Assembly (NCBI GenBank): GCA_022865965.1
Contig: JALHTS010000047.1
Location: forward strand, 1 to 12,077
Length of the DNA: 12,077 nt
Direction of reading: 5' to 3'
Source: Ignavibacteriaceae bacterium
GTDB taxonomy: Bacteria; Bacteroidota; Ignavibacteria; Ignavibacteriales; Ignavibacteriaceae
Made by a program: the position numbers and the translations under genes. This document shows positions 557-8,953 of the stretch, in pieces (position 1 is the stretch's first letter; every line of letters starts with the position of its first letter). Below the pieces are notes generated by a model. It had not been told where the DNA came from. It ran no database searches and was given only the letters and a program-made list of their open reading frames with translations.

Positions 557-1720
557 TCAGTATTCTATTTCTTCAAGAACAGGAAGTTTAACCTTTCTTG
601 GTTTAATAACTTCCTTTTCTATTTTCTTTGCTTTTCCGTTTGATTTATTCTTTGAACCATAACCATCGGGATTGTTATGATCTGCATAGTTTTTATAAGA
701 ATAAATCTTATGCTTATAGTTTCTCAGAATTATTTTGTCTTCATCATGATGCAGAACATAATTCGGAACAAGCGGAATTTTTCCTCCTCCGCCCGGTGCA
801 TCAATAACAAATTGAGGAATTGCGAGTCCGCTTGTATGTCCTCTCAATCCTTCAAGAATTTTCAACCCTGTTTCAATTGAAGTTCTAAAATGATTTGCGC
901 CCTTTGTTTCATCAGCCATATACATATAGTAAGGACGAACTCTGATTTTAAGAAGCTTTTGAACAAGATCTTTAACTACTGCGGCATCATCATTTATCCC
1001 CTTCATGATAACCATCTGGTTACCAACCGGAATACCTGCATCAGCAAGCATTTCACATGCTTTAGAGCTTTCTGAAGTAATTTCCCACGGATGATTGAAA
1101 TGAGTATTACAGTAAATCGGATGATACTTCTTAAGCATATTACATAGTTTTGGAGTAATTCGCTGTGGAAGTACACAGGGCATTTTTGATCCGAGACGAA
1201 TAATTTCAATATGAGAAATTTCCCTTAAGCGCTTTAATATTTTTTCAAGCATCTGATCTGTAAGCATTAGAGGATCGCCGCCTGATAAAATTACATCACG
1301 GATTTCCGTATGCTGTTCAAGATACTTGAATGCACTTTCCAATCCCTTCATAGAAATTTTTTCGTGATCGCCAACTTTCCTTTTTCTTGTGCAGAAGCGG
1401 CAGTAAAGTCCGCACTGACTTGTAACAAGGAAAAGTGCACGATCCGGATAACGATGAGTAATATTCGGAACAGGGCTCATCGCATCTTCCATTAATGGAT
1501 CTTCTTCTGCCTCAAAATCTTCCAGCTCTGCTTTGTCCGGAACACATTGACGCCAGATCGGATCGCCGGGATAGCGGATCAAGCTTAAATAATATGGATT
1601 GATACGTGCCTGGAAAAATTCATCCAGATCTCCCGCAATTTTGCGGTCTATGTTGAACTTTTCCACCAGTTGATCGACAGTGTGAACACTATCTCGTATC
1701 ATTTGCTGCCAGATTTCCAT
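557..1720 (-). CDS. kamA: Lysine 2,3-aminomutase (KamA family, radical SAM, PLP-dependent)
   Basis: The predicted 387-residue enzyme interconverts L-lysine and L-beta-lysine using a [4Fe-4S] cluster, S-adenosylmethionine and pyridoxal phosphate. The radical-SAM cluster motif CGLYCRFC gives Cys103, Cys107 and Cys110, followed by TRKRK. SGGDPL at 146-151 is the SAM-contact motif. The PLP lysine is Lys314 in DAPGGGGK. Asp270 and Asp307 fall at the spacings of the two aspartates that bind the lysine side-chain amine in the clostridial enzyme, Asp293 and Asp330. Glutamate 2,3-aminomutases replace both, so lysine is the likely substrate. The tail after residue 350 is lysine-rich and looks disordered. 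The start is firm: TAAGGA overlaps the stop of the upstream GNAT gene, 6 nt before the ATG. It is the last gene of a four-gene operon and is followed by a strong terminator. The EF-P lysine-modifying paralogue EpmB is an alternative, but that protein is shorter and no efp or epmA is nearby. Confidence 0.92.
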   Translation of the reverse strand: MEIWQQMIRDSVHTVDQLVEKFNIDRKIAGDLDEFFQARINPYYLSLIRYPGDPIWRQCVPDKAELEDFEAEEDPLMEDAMSPVPNITHRYPDRALFLVTSQCGLYCRFCTRKRKVGDHEKISMKGLESAFKYLEQHTEIRDVILSGGDPLMLTDQMLEKILKRLREISHIEIIRLGSKMPCVLPQRITPKLCNMLKKYHPIYCNTHFNHPWEITSESSKACEMLADAGIPVGNQMVIMKGINDDAAVVKDLVQKLLKIRVRPYYMYMADETKGANHFRTSIETGLKILEGLRGHTSGLAIPQFVIDAPGGGGKIPLVPNYVLHHDEDKIILRNYKHKIYSYKNYADHNNPDGYGSKNKSNGKAKKIEKEVIKPRKVKLPVLEEIEY

Positions 1721-1729
1721 AACGAGTCC

Positions 1730-2212
1730 TTAATTATTCTTGTTGTTAAAATACTTCCCCAACACCAGCAAGTTGTCGCCCATTGAATAAAAATCATTTA
1801 TTTCAGAAATAATGCTGTAATTGTTCCGCAAATAAAAATTTCTTGTATCCGCATAACTTTCTTTGGATGATGTTTCCGCCAAAAGCCATCTGCCTTTATT
1901 TTCCTTAACAAAATTTTCTGCGTGCTCAATCAAACTCTTGCCGATTCCTTTTTTTCCCGAAGAGGGATCAGCAACAATCCAATAAAGATCATATACAGCA
2001 TCCGTTAATGGTCGCTTACCGGTACAATGATACCCGATTACTTTTCCTTCATCCTCATGTACAAAGATGTGATAATCTTTCTGATCAGGATTGAAAGCGG
2101 TAATATTTATCAGTTCCATGGCAATTTCTACTTCTTGCTCATTAAAAGCAGAAATTTTCTTTAACATTCCTTCAATCTGATCTACATCAGCTTGCTTTAT
2201 TCTTCTTATCAT
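1730..2212 (-). CDS. GNAT-family N-acetyltransferase
   Basis: This 160-residue single-domain protein is the usual size for a GNAT. The acetyl-CoA pyrophosphate loop is visible as GKKGIGKS at 86-93, after the beta4 strand DLYWIVADP. The C-terminal half (LLAETSS, then NFYLRNNY) is the classic beta5/alpha4 region, in which the Tyr of NFY is often the general acid. The gene overlaps the end of the upstream ATP-grasp gene by 26 nt and ends 9 nt before kamA, so translation is probably coupled to both. A GNAT next to a lysine 2,3-aminomutase recalls ablA-ablB, where AblB acetylates beta-lysine on N6 to make the osmolyte N-epsilon-acetyl-beta-lysine. AblB is clearly longer, and I do not recognise it here. 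Acetylation of beta-lysine or of a ligase product is therefore an inference from context. The fold is certain; the acceptor is unknown. Confidence 0.85.
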   Translation of the reverse strand: MIRRIKQADVDQIEGMLKKISAFNEQEVEIAMELINITAFNPDQKDYHIFVHEDEGKVIGYHCTGKRPLTDAVYDLYWIVADPSSGKKGIGKSLIEHAENFVKENKGRWLLAETSSKESYADTRNFYLRNNYSIISEINDFYSMGDNLLVLGKYFNNKNN

Positions 2213-3245
2213 TGTCTTTCCGGTTCAATGCAAAACCCGTTATAATAAATAGCAGTTCAGGATGAGAAATTCCCGCTGCCTTAGCTGCTCTTGCAAAACC
2301 CGAATCACTTGAAATATCCGGATTCGGATTAACTTCAATAACAAATGGCGTGCCTTTCTGATCTAATCTTATATCAATTCGTGCATAATCTCTGCAGTTT
2401 AGAGCCTTGAAAGATGTTAATGCCATATCTTCAACTTTCTTTTTCAATCTCTTTGTAAGATCAGCCGGGCATTTTGGTTTTGTAAAATCATAATAAACAC
2501 TTTCTTCTATCCACTTACCCTCATAAGTAACAATTTTAGGAAGATGATCCGGCAAACCTGTAAACTGAATTTCGGAAATCGGAAGCACTTTATCGCCAAG
2601 CACTGCGGCATTAAGTTCTCTTCCGTCAATATATTCTTCAACAAGAATATTTTTGTTATAAGTATCAGAAAGAAACTTATAATGCTTCTTCAACTCTTTA
2701 TAGTTTTTAACAACGGAATATTCCGAAATAGCGATACTCGCATCCTCATCGAGCAATTTCATTATAAGAGGATAATTAAGATCAATATCTTTTTCGGAAA
2801 ACCTCCGGTGCGGTTTCAATGTCAAAGAACCCGGCGTATTTATTCCAAACGAACGTAAAATACTTTTTGCTTTGTCTTTATCTAAACAATTTCCAAGCGA
2901 CGATGGAATGCTTCCGGTATAATGATAACCAAGTAATTCATACAAAGCCGCCATGCAATATTCATAAGATGTAATGCCTTCAACCGATTCTACAAAATTT
3001 ATAATTGCATCGGGATTAAAAGCCGTTATCTCGTCAATAACTCTCTGAACTCTTTTATCAACCGCTAAAGATTGAACTTCGCTGAAATAATTTTTCAGAA
3101 TGCTAATAACGCTTTCCATCTCCGTAGCAAAACCTTCTTCAGAAAGATCTTTTGTGCCCTTATCTTTATCTTCAGGTCGTCCATTATATAAAGAGAACAC
3201 GCTTACCGGCGCATTATAACAAACCAGAATTTTTGTTTCTTTCAT
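2187..3245 (-). CDS. Divergent ATP-grasp ligase, D-Ala-D-Ala-ligase-like (ligase 2)
   Basis: The 352-residue protein has the order of a D-Ala-D-Ala ligase. An N-terminal alpha/beta part runs to about residue 100, followed by YTGSIPSSLGNCLDKDKAK (109-127) with ATP-binding Lys123. A second ATP-binding lysine is Lys163 in PLIMK. LVEEYIDGREL lies at 201-211, YEGKW at 241-245, and metal ligands are Asp291, Glu304 and Asn306 in RIDIRLD and EVNPNPD. Two conserved loops differ from true Ddl. The serine-glycine loop EGSSxG after the second lysine is replaced by LDEDASIAIS, and the substrate-carboxylate loop N-x-x-PG is replaced by NPNPD. An acyl-phosphate-forming ligase with a substrate other than D-Ala is therefore likely. 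Its ATG overlaps the stop of ligase 1 as ATGA, and its own end overlaps the GNAT start, so both junctions suggest coupled translation. No signal peptide is seen; it should be cytosolic. Confidence 0.82.
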   Translation of the reverse strand: MKETKILVCYNAPVSVFSLYNGRPEDKDKGTKDLSEEGFATEMESVISILKNYFSEVQSLAVDKRVQRVIDEITAFNPDAIINFVESVEGITSYEYCMAALYELLGYHYTGSIPSSLGNCLDKDKAKSILRSFGINTPGSLTLKPHRRFSEKDIDLNYPLIMKLLDEDASIAISEYSVVKNYKELKKHYKFLSDTYNKNILVEEYIDGRELNAAVLGDKVLPISEIQFTGLPDHLPKIVTYEGKWIEESVYYDFTKPKCPADLTKRLKKKVEDMALTSFKALNCRDYARIDIRLDQKGTPFVIEVNPNPDISSDSGFARAAKAAGISHPELLFIITGFALNRKDNDKKNKAS

Positions 3246-4369
3246 TTTACCATGCTATATCTTTGTGCAGCCGCATACAAAACAGAATTAATCATATCTT
3301 CATAAGTCATACCCGCAACTCTTGCTGCCTTAGGAAAACTCGAGTTTTCTGTTGGATCAGGAATAATGCCGGGCAAAGGATTAATTTCAATAACACTTGG
3401 CTCTCCGTTCTTATCTAAACGTACATCAACTCTGCTCCAATCCTTGCAGCGAAGAATATTGTAAGTATCAAGCGCAATCCTTTTTATCTTCTCTTCAAGA
3501 ACAGGATCAATATTTGCCGGACAATCGAAAACATCGAATTCACTTTCTTTAGTATCAAGAATCCATTTTGCTTCATAAGAATATAACGGGACAATTCCTT
3601 CGGGATAACGATCGTAAACAATTTCAATTATCGGAAGTATTCTGGTATCGCTACCGTTTCCAAGAATTGCAATTGTAAATTCTCTTCCGGGAAGAAATTC
3701 TTCTATCAAGGCTGATTGATTGTATTCGTTTGTAATTCTGTTCACTTCACTATACAGTTCATGTTCGTTTCTTACGAACGATGAAGAATAAATTCCTTTA
3801 CTCGATCCTTCACAAACAGGTTTTACCATTAATGGAAAATCGAATGAAAGATTTTTTATATCATCGATGTTATCTGCAACTTTAAATTTTGCATTCTGTA
3901 TTCCGTAATAAGAAAGAATTTCTTTTGTCCGTGCTTTATCGAGACAAATTCCTAAAGTAAGTGCATCCGAACCTGTATAAGGTATCTGAAGCATATCAAG
4001 CATTGCAGGTATTTGTGTTTCACGACTAACACCGTAAGCCCCTTCTGCTATGTTGAAAACGATATCAGGCTGCAACTCTCTGAATCTGTTGAACGCATCT
4101 TCGTTTGCTTCAACCAAAGTAACGTTATGATATTGTTCTAAAGAATCTTTAAGAGCATTTATAGTTTCCCAAGTATCCCATTCAGCGTACGTATCCGTTG
4201 AAGGTTGAGTGTTCGAGATTGGATTTTTCTGATTAGGGGGTACGATTGCGGGGAAAGTTGTTTCACTTTCAGGTTTAACATTGAATGTTAACGCCACATT
4301 AAGTCTTACATTGAACAAAGGGAATAGGATAACTGGTCCTTTAAAATATTTTTTATTTTTTTTTACCAA
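3242..4369 (-). CDS. ATP-grasp ligase, D-Ala-D-Ala-ligase-like (ligase 1); start uncertain
   Basis: The frame encodes up to 375 residues and is the first gene of the kamA operon. Ddl-type motifs are well kept: NIAEGAYGVSRETQIPA (106-122), IPYTGSDALTLGICLDKARTK (129-149) with Lys145, MVKPVCEGSSKGI (181-193) with Lys183 and the ATP/serine loop, LIEEFLPGREF, YSYEAKW (263-269) with the expected tyrosine, and Asp315, Glu328 and Asn330 in RVDVRLD and EINPLPG. Such ligases join two amino acids through an acyl phosphate. Despite the usual database name, this subfamily is not proven to make D-Ala-D-Ala. A Pro/Ser/Asn-rich linker at about 34-60 separates the first beta strand from YAEWDTWETI. The longest frame begins with TTG at 4369, but that codon lies inside a probable promoter element. 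GTG at 4297 (Val25, just before ALTFNVKPE) or TTG at 4318 may be the true start. Confidence 0.83.
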   Translation of the reverse strand: MVKKNKKYFKGPVILFPLFNVRLNVALTFNVKPESETTFPAIVPPNQKNPISNTQPSTDTYAEWDTWETINALKDSLEQYHNVTLVEANEDAFNRFRELQPDIVFNIAEGAYGVSRETQIPAMLDMLQIPYTGSDALTLGICLDKARTKEILSYYGIQNAKFKVADNIDDIKNLSFDFPLMVKPVCEGSSKGIYSSSFVRNEHELYSEVNRITNEYNQSALIEEFLPGREFTIAILGNGSDTRILPIIEIVYDRYPEGIVPLYSYEAKWILDTKESEFDVFDCPANIDPVLEEKIKRIALDTYNILRCKDWSRVDVRLDKNGEPSVIEINPLPGIIPDPTENSSFPKAARVAGMTYEDMINSVLYAAAQRYSMVK

Positions 4370-4396
4370 ATATAATTATTATAAATTCATTTGCAA
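4367..4396 (-). promoter_or_regulatory. Probable Bacteroidetes-type promoter of the ligase-ligase-GNAT-kamA operon
   Basis: On the minus strand TTG (4396-4394) is followed after 19 nt by TATATTTG (4374-4367). This fits the -33 TTG and -7 TAnnTTTG pattern used by the primary sigma factor of Bacteroidetes. Transcription would start a few bases below 4367, which would exclude the TTG codon at 4369 as a start. Use of this consensus in the organism is assumed, not shown. Confidence 0.45.
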
Positions 4397-8460: not shown

Positions 8461-8530
8461 TTTAAAATTTGTCTCATAGCAACTGATAGCTTAACAAAAT
8501 ACCACTAAACTTTTGAAAGGTTTAACGCTT

Positions 8531-8953
8531 ATGAACAGGTTTCTTATCAAACTATTTTTAATTGTTGTTTGTTTTTCTTCTATTTTACAATCTCAATCCA
8601 CTTCTCACAATTCAATGACAGGGAAAAATTGGAAAGAGTTTAATCATTTAACTAAATGCACTTATTTGATAGGCATAGATAATGGTTTGAGCTGGGCATT
8701 AACACTAATTTCACATAAAGTCGATAACAAAGAATATCTGGAAAAAACTAAATCGATTATCTTCGGCAACATTTTGGCTGAAATTGATTATGACGATTTA
8801 GTAAAAGAAGTAAACGAATTTTATAAATTGGGTCCAAACTTAAATATTCCGGTATTATTTGCATTTGATTATACCAAGCGAAGGTATTTAGGTGAAACAG
8901 AATCAGAGTTAGAGGAGCTATTAAGTAGTTGGCGTAAAGTTTTTAATAAATAG
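8531..8953 (+). CDS. Small exported protein of unknown function
   Basis: From the ATG at 8531 the product has 140 residues. An earlier TTG at 8513 would add six residues ahead of the signal peptide and has no ribosome site. The ATG has AAAGG 10 nt upstream. MNRFLIKLFLIVVCFSSILQ is a typical signal peptide (basic start, hydrophobic core), with cleavage likely near residues 21-23, so the mature protein of about 118 residues should be periplasmic or surface-exposed. The mature part reads GKNWKEFNHLTKCTYLIGID, later EVNEFYKLGPNLNIPVLFAF, then ESELEELLSSWRK. This W...K..YL.G.(D)NG...FY...N..IPV...A pattern matches small secreted helical proteins I have seen in many genomes without a known function. 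There is one Cys in the mature part, so no disulphide within the chain is possible. The gene is monocistronic, flanked by two inverted repeat copies, and converges with gpsA. Confidence 0.72.
   Translation: MNRFLIKLFLIVVCFSSILQSQSTSHNSMTGKNWKEFNHLTKCTYLIGIDNGLSWALTLISHKVDNKEYLEKTKSIIFGNILAEIDYDDLVKEVNEFYKLGPNLNIPVLFAFDYTKRRYLGETESELEELLSSWRKVFNK

Follow-up and report, generated by a model that had tools for sequence, protein, structure and literature searches.

We identified a compact operon of 4 genes, encoding 2 ATP-grasp ligases (LigA and LigB), a GNAT acetyltransferase, and a lysine 2,3-aminomutase type enzyme (KamA), in a 12,077-base stretch of DNA from an Ignavibacteriaceae bacterium (GenBank assembly GCA_022865965.1, contig JALHTS010000047.1), hereafter the window. 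The genes are probably, by a modest margin of confidence, a dedicated pathway that would make an acetylated beta-lysyl di- or tripeptide in the cytoplasm, where it would be accumulated and turned over in the manner of N-acetylglutaminylglutamine amide (NAGGN). The gene order and its conservation, a recurring promoter, the terminator, the protein families, the predicted folds, the key residues, and the co-occurrence with a second locus were established directly. The window is a single contig, number 236 in a draft genome totaling 3.03 Mb (741 contigs, 95.9% complete), and transcription of the operon runs on the minus strand from about 4.4 kb toward about 0.5 kb, with the following features:

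4367..4396, minus strand: promoter of Bacteroidota type, TTG-N19-TATATTTG, recurring in front of LigA at 14 of the 19 loci compared
3242..4297, minus strand: LigA, Ddl-fold ATP-grasp ligase, 351 aa, with a probable GTG start at 4297 (originally predicted as TTG at 4369)
2187..3245, minus strand: LigB, second Ddl-fold ATP-grasp ligase, 352 aa
1730..2212, minus strand: GNAT acetyltransferase, 160 aa, Pfam PF13508/PF00583, by profile not AblB
557..1720, minus strand: KamA, radical S-adenosylmethionine (SAM) and pyridoxal phosphate (PLP) enzyme of lysine 2,3-aminomutase type, 387 aa, TIGR03820 465 bits
495..532, minus strand: intrinsic terminator 3' of kamA, hairpin and T tract, -15.4 kcal/mol, z -3.4

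The 4 open reading frames (ORFs), their strand, and their 3 junctions (a 4-nt ATGA overlap of LigA and LigB at 3242-3245, a 26-nt overlap of LigB and GNAT at 2187-2212, and a 9-nt gap between GNAT and KamA at 1721-1729) lie where the original prediction, made from the letters of the window, had placed them, and its family names agree with the Pfam and NCBIfam matches. It had further proposed a single promoter in front of the operon and a terminator behind it, and both were recovered. The element at 4396-4367, which we take to fit the Bacteroidota promoter consensus, was matched upstream of LigA in those 14 loci against 0.93 expected from shuffles, with a pattern chosen after the window had been inspected and with approximate start points for several loci; the background was 108 matches in 4348 windows, each 280 nt long, and the loci without a match were L052, L055, L056, L057, and L058. 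Across relatives the element is very uniform, often TTGAC...TATATTTG. A generic sigma-70 promoter scan gave 12 elements against 16.4 expected, no excess over chance. The terminator hairpin and its T run were equaled by 3 of 200 shuffles. The TTG at 4369, predicted earlier as the start of LigA, is doubtful because it forms the last 3 bases of the -7 element and because several relatives have in-frame stops immediately 5' of the conserved LigA N-terminus. We guess that GTG 4297 is the likelier start; it gives a length close to that of LigB.

We searched 59 genomes of the order for LigB and obtained matches in 58, other ligases among them. LigB loci were defined as the 53 matches down to 2.7e-76, with 3 matches of the LigC type described below (4.2e-75 to 3.3e-72) left out and a best match below 1e-70 in 51 genomes, so that LigB is counted in 51 of 59 genomes and the operon was not found in 8. 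KamA lies downstream of LigB on the same strand at 51 of the 53 loci (49 genomes from 3 families), at a distance of 466-631 nt that leaves space for GNAT. A contig end shortens 2 of these 51 KamA matches (G036 and one copy in G014), and at the 2 loci without KamA (G011 and G045) LigB lies, or seems to lie, where the contig ends. Two genomes, G014 and G046, have 2 operon copies each. The order RecG-LigA-LigB-GNAT-KamA was found in all 18 order-level loci, which were chosen by LigB presence, with KamA cut in L046 and RecG cut in L044.

The best 80 of 562 LigA relatives, all at named loci, had the 4 genes in order in 76 cases; 3 of the misses coincide with sequence ends (L168, L175, and L194), and in the fourth (L180) GNAT was below threshold. 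Record titles in this set name Ignavibacteria, Melioribacter, Kryptonia, Stygiobacter, a Chlorobiaceae metagenome-assembled genome (MAG), and unplaced bacterial or Bacteroidetes MAGs, and all 4 genes are carried by a named strain, Stygiobacter electus (L179), and by a MAG titled Melioribacter roseus (L160). GNAT matches were used to choose 20 loci outside the order. All 4 genes were labeled at 10 of these and GNAT alone at 6; the other 4 loci had some of the genes labeled, opposite-strand ORFs having apparently displaced the rest in the simple ORF caller. The linkage exceeds chance, and the operon is a dedicated one retained through the order: the ordered co-occurrence of the 4 families that the original prediction had proposed to look for was found (KamA after LigB, and the full order among LigA relatives), and homologs scattered through related genomes, which it had named as counter-evidence, were not seen.

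Among subfamily models, KamA scored best with AblA (TIGR03820; 465.2 bits, curated cut-off 525.4), followed by the glutamate (430) and arginine (364) 2,3-aminomutase models; it scored 236 with the EpmB model (TIGR03821, cut-off 369) and also has LAM_C. In an alignment to the solved lysine 2,3-aminomutase 2a5h, residues D293, D330, K337, and R134 correspond to D270, D307, K314, and R112 of KamA. We take D293 and D330 of 2a5h to hold the side amine of lysine, and K314 and R112 of KamA to be the PLP lysine and the carboxylate arginine. These 4 residues and the CxxxCxxC cluster motif (C103, C107, and C110) are invariant in 17 of 17 aligned KamA proteins of the operon, an alignment that excludes L048 and the shortened L046, and KamA therefore has each feature by which a lysine 2,3-aminomutase was recognized here (CxxxCxxC, PLP lysine, and 2 aspartates). 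As a comparison check, both aspartates are also present in Bacillus AblA, the second position is Thr in 2 arginine aminomutases labeled BlsG and Cys in 2 rhizobial KamA proteins, and the KamA proteins of Bradyrhizobium barranii and Mesorhizobium are without either aspartate. Lysine is our best guess for the substrate from these residues, which are consistent with the conversion of lysine to beta-lysine that had been predicted for KamA. PADLOC and PHROGs searches with KamA gave weak viperin-type matches only, via the radical-SAM domain.

LigA and LigB share the fold of D-Ala-D-Ala ligase (Ddl) over nearly their whole length but differ from it at substrate-binding positions and in profile score. 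AlphaFold models of LigB (predicted local distance difference test, pLDDT, 90) and LigA (pLDDT 82, with residues 11-38 poor) both match Ddl structures in this way, and both proteins are below the curated cut-off in each of 25 ligase families listed, out of totals of 40 and 37 with a match, the LigA search having used the longer ORF. With the Ddl model NF002378, LigA scored 199 and LigB 148 against a cut-off of 243. The Ddl substrate signature (GGTSxERE, SSVG, ECKY, and NTLPGMTSxSL) was found in neither. When the 2 ligases were aligned with the Ddl of this genome, the GGTSPERE loop could be recognized in neither, and the ECKY tyrosine, presumably Tyr216 of Escherichia coli DdlB, is replaced by Trp in both. 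LigB has Ala at the Ser150 position and Asp at the Gly276 position; LigA retains the GSS serine. E39 of LigA is invariant in 19 of 19 sequences, and E36 of LigB is invariant in the 18 order-level sequences but not in a wider set; by our own count both are about 1 residue off the position of Ddl E15, and amino-group binding near that position may persist. The separate Ddl, encoded on contig 429 of the same genome, keeps the full signature, which rules out LigA or LigB as the only Ddl of the cell and removes the sole D-Ala-D-Ala ligase role that the original prediction had named as a threat to its reading.

The GNAT protein matched Pfam PF13508/PF00583, with no match to TIGR03827 (AblB). Its nearest solved structure is 2r7h (112 bits), which is named a putative D-alanine N-acetyltransferase and which we take to be from Desulfovibrio. 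PADLOC and PHROGs searches gave generic acetyltransferase matches only, and a search of plasmids gave 8 weak matches.

We also identified a second locus, absent from the original prediction and new here, that pairs a third Ddl-type paralog, LigC, with a C39-like cysteine peptidase. LigC, which is unlinked to the operon and has a Ddl-family match, shares 45% identity with LigB over the portion present, the contig end cutting it in the source genome. It is divergent from the adjoining peptidase in 20 of 20 LigC loci of relatives (L059-L078) and adjoins it in 4 of 9 more distant peptidase loci. Cys (in YxCGPFALK), His, and Asp positions are conserved in the peptidase, which by eye has no hydrophobic leader and matches the C39 domain weakly, at 25 bits where the cut-offs are 22 and 24. 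It was detected in 48 of 51 genomes with the operon and in 1 of 8 without it (G027), with a Fisher p of 2.7e-6 in a test that ignores shared ancestry, and the 3 operon genomes without a match were G000 (locus cut), G005 (82% complete), and G020. Across 247 genomes sampled from the phylum, where operon status was taken from a GNAT match (LigB for G045) and G237 was left out of inspection, 28 had a strong peptidase match, 27 of them operon carriers. The peptidase was present in 1 of 20 listed within-class relatives lacking the operon. Genes for an isochorismatase-family hydrolase, a HAD hydrolase, and DUF6580 often lie near LigC loci L059-L078.

In the proposed pathway, KamA would convert L-lysine to L-beta-lysine, as its conserved residues suggest, LigA and LigB, with their changed substrate pockets, would join beta-lysine to 1 or 2 amino acids at the cost of ATP, and GNAT would acetylate a free amine on the amino acid or peptide. 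From their co-occurrence with the operon, LigC may extend or vary the product and the C39-like peptidase may trim or recycle it. The product is probably cytoplasmic, because the unit has neither an exporter nor a non-ribosomal peptide synthetase. Of the original prediction, the retained operon, the lysine-type KamA, and ligases distinct from the cell's Ddl stand, and the LigA start probably does not.

The nearest parallel is the NAGGN system (Ngg and AsnO with a dipeptidase), in which, according to part of PMC5563000, one acetylated glutamine is coupled to a second and an adjacent peptidase is believed to keep the pool in balance; mutants have reduced growth under salt, as given in part of PMC12442406. 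N-acetylation, dipeptide formation, and a pool-balancing peptidase would be common to both, proposed here from the genes and by analogy only. In that system, Ngg performs both steps and AsnO amidates, whereas the operon has separate Ddl-type ligases, a GNAT, and an aminomutase, and its C39-like peptidase is at another locus; the unit has no AsnO, although no search aimed at AsnO or Ngg was made. Our best reading, by this analogy, is that the operon would work like the NAGGN system from unrelated parts. More tentatively, and with less than even confidence, the 6 genes of the 2 loci may form a single pathway to a new acetylated beta-lysyl oligopeptide, which in most Ignavibacteriales would be a core metabolite of the cytoplasm, comparable to glutathione or NAGGN elsewhere. 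The operon would pair peptide synthesis by ATP-grasp ligases with a beta-amino acid made by a mutase.

The known fates of free beta-lysine are acetylation, attachment to elongation factor P (EF-P), fermentation, and incorporation into certain antibiotics. The proposed pathway, if true, would add a further fate, by way of ligases that share their fold with the cell-wall enzyme Ddl, and would explain 4 to 6 genes whose family names mask a joint role in a group known largely from MAGs. Because Stygiobacter electus carries the operon and its enzymes have the look of small, soluble proteins, mass spectrometry offers a direct way to search for the product.

Related genes are also found together on plasmids, in neighborhoods picked from search lists and hence an uneven sample. 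Of the 11 aminomutase genes examined from the KamA search, 4 have an annotated ATP-grasp or carboxylate-amine ligase nearby, in Rhizobium NLR16a, Sinorhizobium americanum (where the neighbor is a biotin-carboxylase-like protein), Thioflavicoccus mobilis, and a blasticidin-type cluster with BlsG, and an aminomutase lies near 2 of 7 ligase genes, in Bradyrhizobium barranii and Mesorhizobium AR10, with one of the 7 neighborhoods having no annotation. In the blasticidin-type cluster, BlsG, a 2,3-aminomutase, is annotated 2 genes from an ATP-dependent carboxylate-amine ligase, a pairing like that of the operon; however, that aminomutase is of the arginine type by annotation, the cluster is for a nucleoside antibiotic, and the ligases are likened by annotation only. 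At rhizobial plasmid loci L219 and L227, an aminomutase without the lysine-type residues is near an ATP-grasp ligase. The Thioflavicoccus plasmid cluster (L225) combines KamA, a Ddl-like ligase, and SbnA-like and diaminobutyrate aminotransferase genes, and is perhaps a diamino-acid peptide cluster.

Several points weigh against an acetylated beta-lysyl peptide as the product. The reactions and the ligase substrates are predictions from sequence, KamA does not reach the AblA cut-off, and its pair of aspartates is also present in KamA-family proteins of unknown substrate from Thioflavicoccus and Leptospira. On plasmids, 7 of the 11 aminomutase neighborhoods have no annotated ligase (within flanks of 2.5-7 kb and incomplete gene tables), and the clustered aminomutases of Bradyrhizobium and Mesorhizobium do not have the lysine-type residues. 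The link to the second locus is loosened by the shared ancestry that the co-occurrence tests ignore, and the C39-like peptidase is not obligatory for operon carriers, because 10 of the 37 carriers in the phylum sample have no strong C39 match (weak in G140 and G277). The GNAT-family gene adjoins a racemase gene of the Asp/Glu family (PF01177), or lies a gene away from one, in 4 of the 6 loci with GNAT alone (L121, L122, L123, and L125, outside the class), and the family could instead act in D-amino acid metabolism. A D-amino acid partner in the product is likewise possible, because of the name of 2r7h and these racemase neighbors.

We compared the operon with the known beta-lysine routes, and it has the makeup of none of the AblA-AblB system, EF-P beta-lysylation, and lysine fermentation; AblB, EpmA, and lysine 5,6-aminomutase were each considered as partners, and none is over its cut-off in the source genome. 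The operon resembles the N-epsilon-acetyl-beta-lysine osmolyte route (described in part of PMC12776343) in having an AblA-like lysine 2,3-aminomutase and an acetyltransferase, and it could serve that route with a non-homologous acetyltransferase, the ligases being co-located for a separate job. No competing AblB came over cut-off (TIGR03827 reached it in none of 57 genomes and in 3 of 14 controls), as this explanation would have it, but GNAT itself has no TIGR03827 match, KamA is under the AblA cut-off, the genes overlap, and the 2 tightly linked ATP-grasp ligases are retained together with KamA; some relatives, by record title only, come from fen and groundwater. We consider this explanation unlikely. 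It is also improbable that the ligases make a di- or tripeptide unit for peptidoglycan or another envelope polymer, a role suggested by the Ddl fold of LigA and LigB, the Ddl-family match of LigC, and the 4 GNAT-family loci near racemase genes outside the class: the unit has no Mur ligase, flippase, or transferase, and the absence of a detected operon from 8 of the 59 genomes of the order would be odd for a wall component.

The original prediction had counted action of KamA on EF-P, or in lysine catabolism only, as readings that would displace its own, and both are disfavored. A KamA-family enzyme and beta-lysine are common to the operon and to the EpmB/EpmA system, and a ligase of the operon might attach beta-lysine to a protein such as EF-P in place of EpmA: the EF-P loop KPGKGGAF was found in 5 of 5 operon genomes examined, and EpmA (TIGR00462) was over cut-off in 0 of 31 genomes (2 of 14 controls), with sub-threshold matches in all 31, the strong ones in frames of about 500 residues being taken as lysyl-tRNA synthetase. 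However, the identical loop is present in 6 of the 8 genomes that lack the operon (it differs in G027, and the pattern did not catch G024), so the lysine-bearing loop occurs with or without the operon and EF-P was rejected as its target, and KamA, well under the EpmB cut-off and having LAM_C, is not EpmB. We regard protein attachment as very unlikely. Least credible is the catabolism of lysine via beta-lysine, a pathway that KamA begins in fermenters; it would have no place for ATP-consuming ligases, and lysine 5,6-aminomutase (PF09043) had no match in the source genome and was over cut-off in 3 of 57 genomes, in a search that detected it in 0 of 14 controls.

The 4-gene set was not seen in the titles and abstract openings of those papers that were covered from longer search lists. 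A 2009 survey of amidoligase neighborhoods by Iyer and Aravind may already include this one. Term counts were all zero in the part of PMC8939145 covered, and the single aminomutase in the corresponding part of PMC9318685 is a different enzyme. Elsewhere in the window, at 8513-8953 on the plus strand, a 146-aa ORF without a Pfam or PHROG match has a hydrophobic stretch near its N-terminus that by eye resembles a signal peptide.

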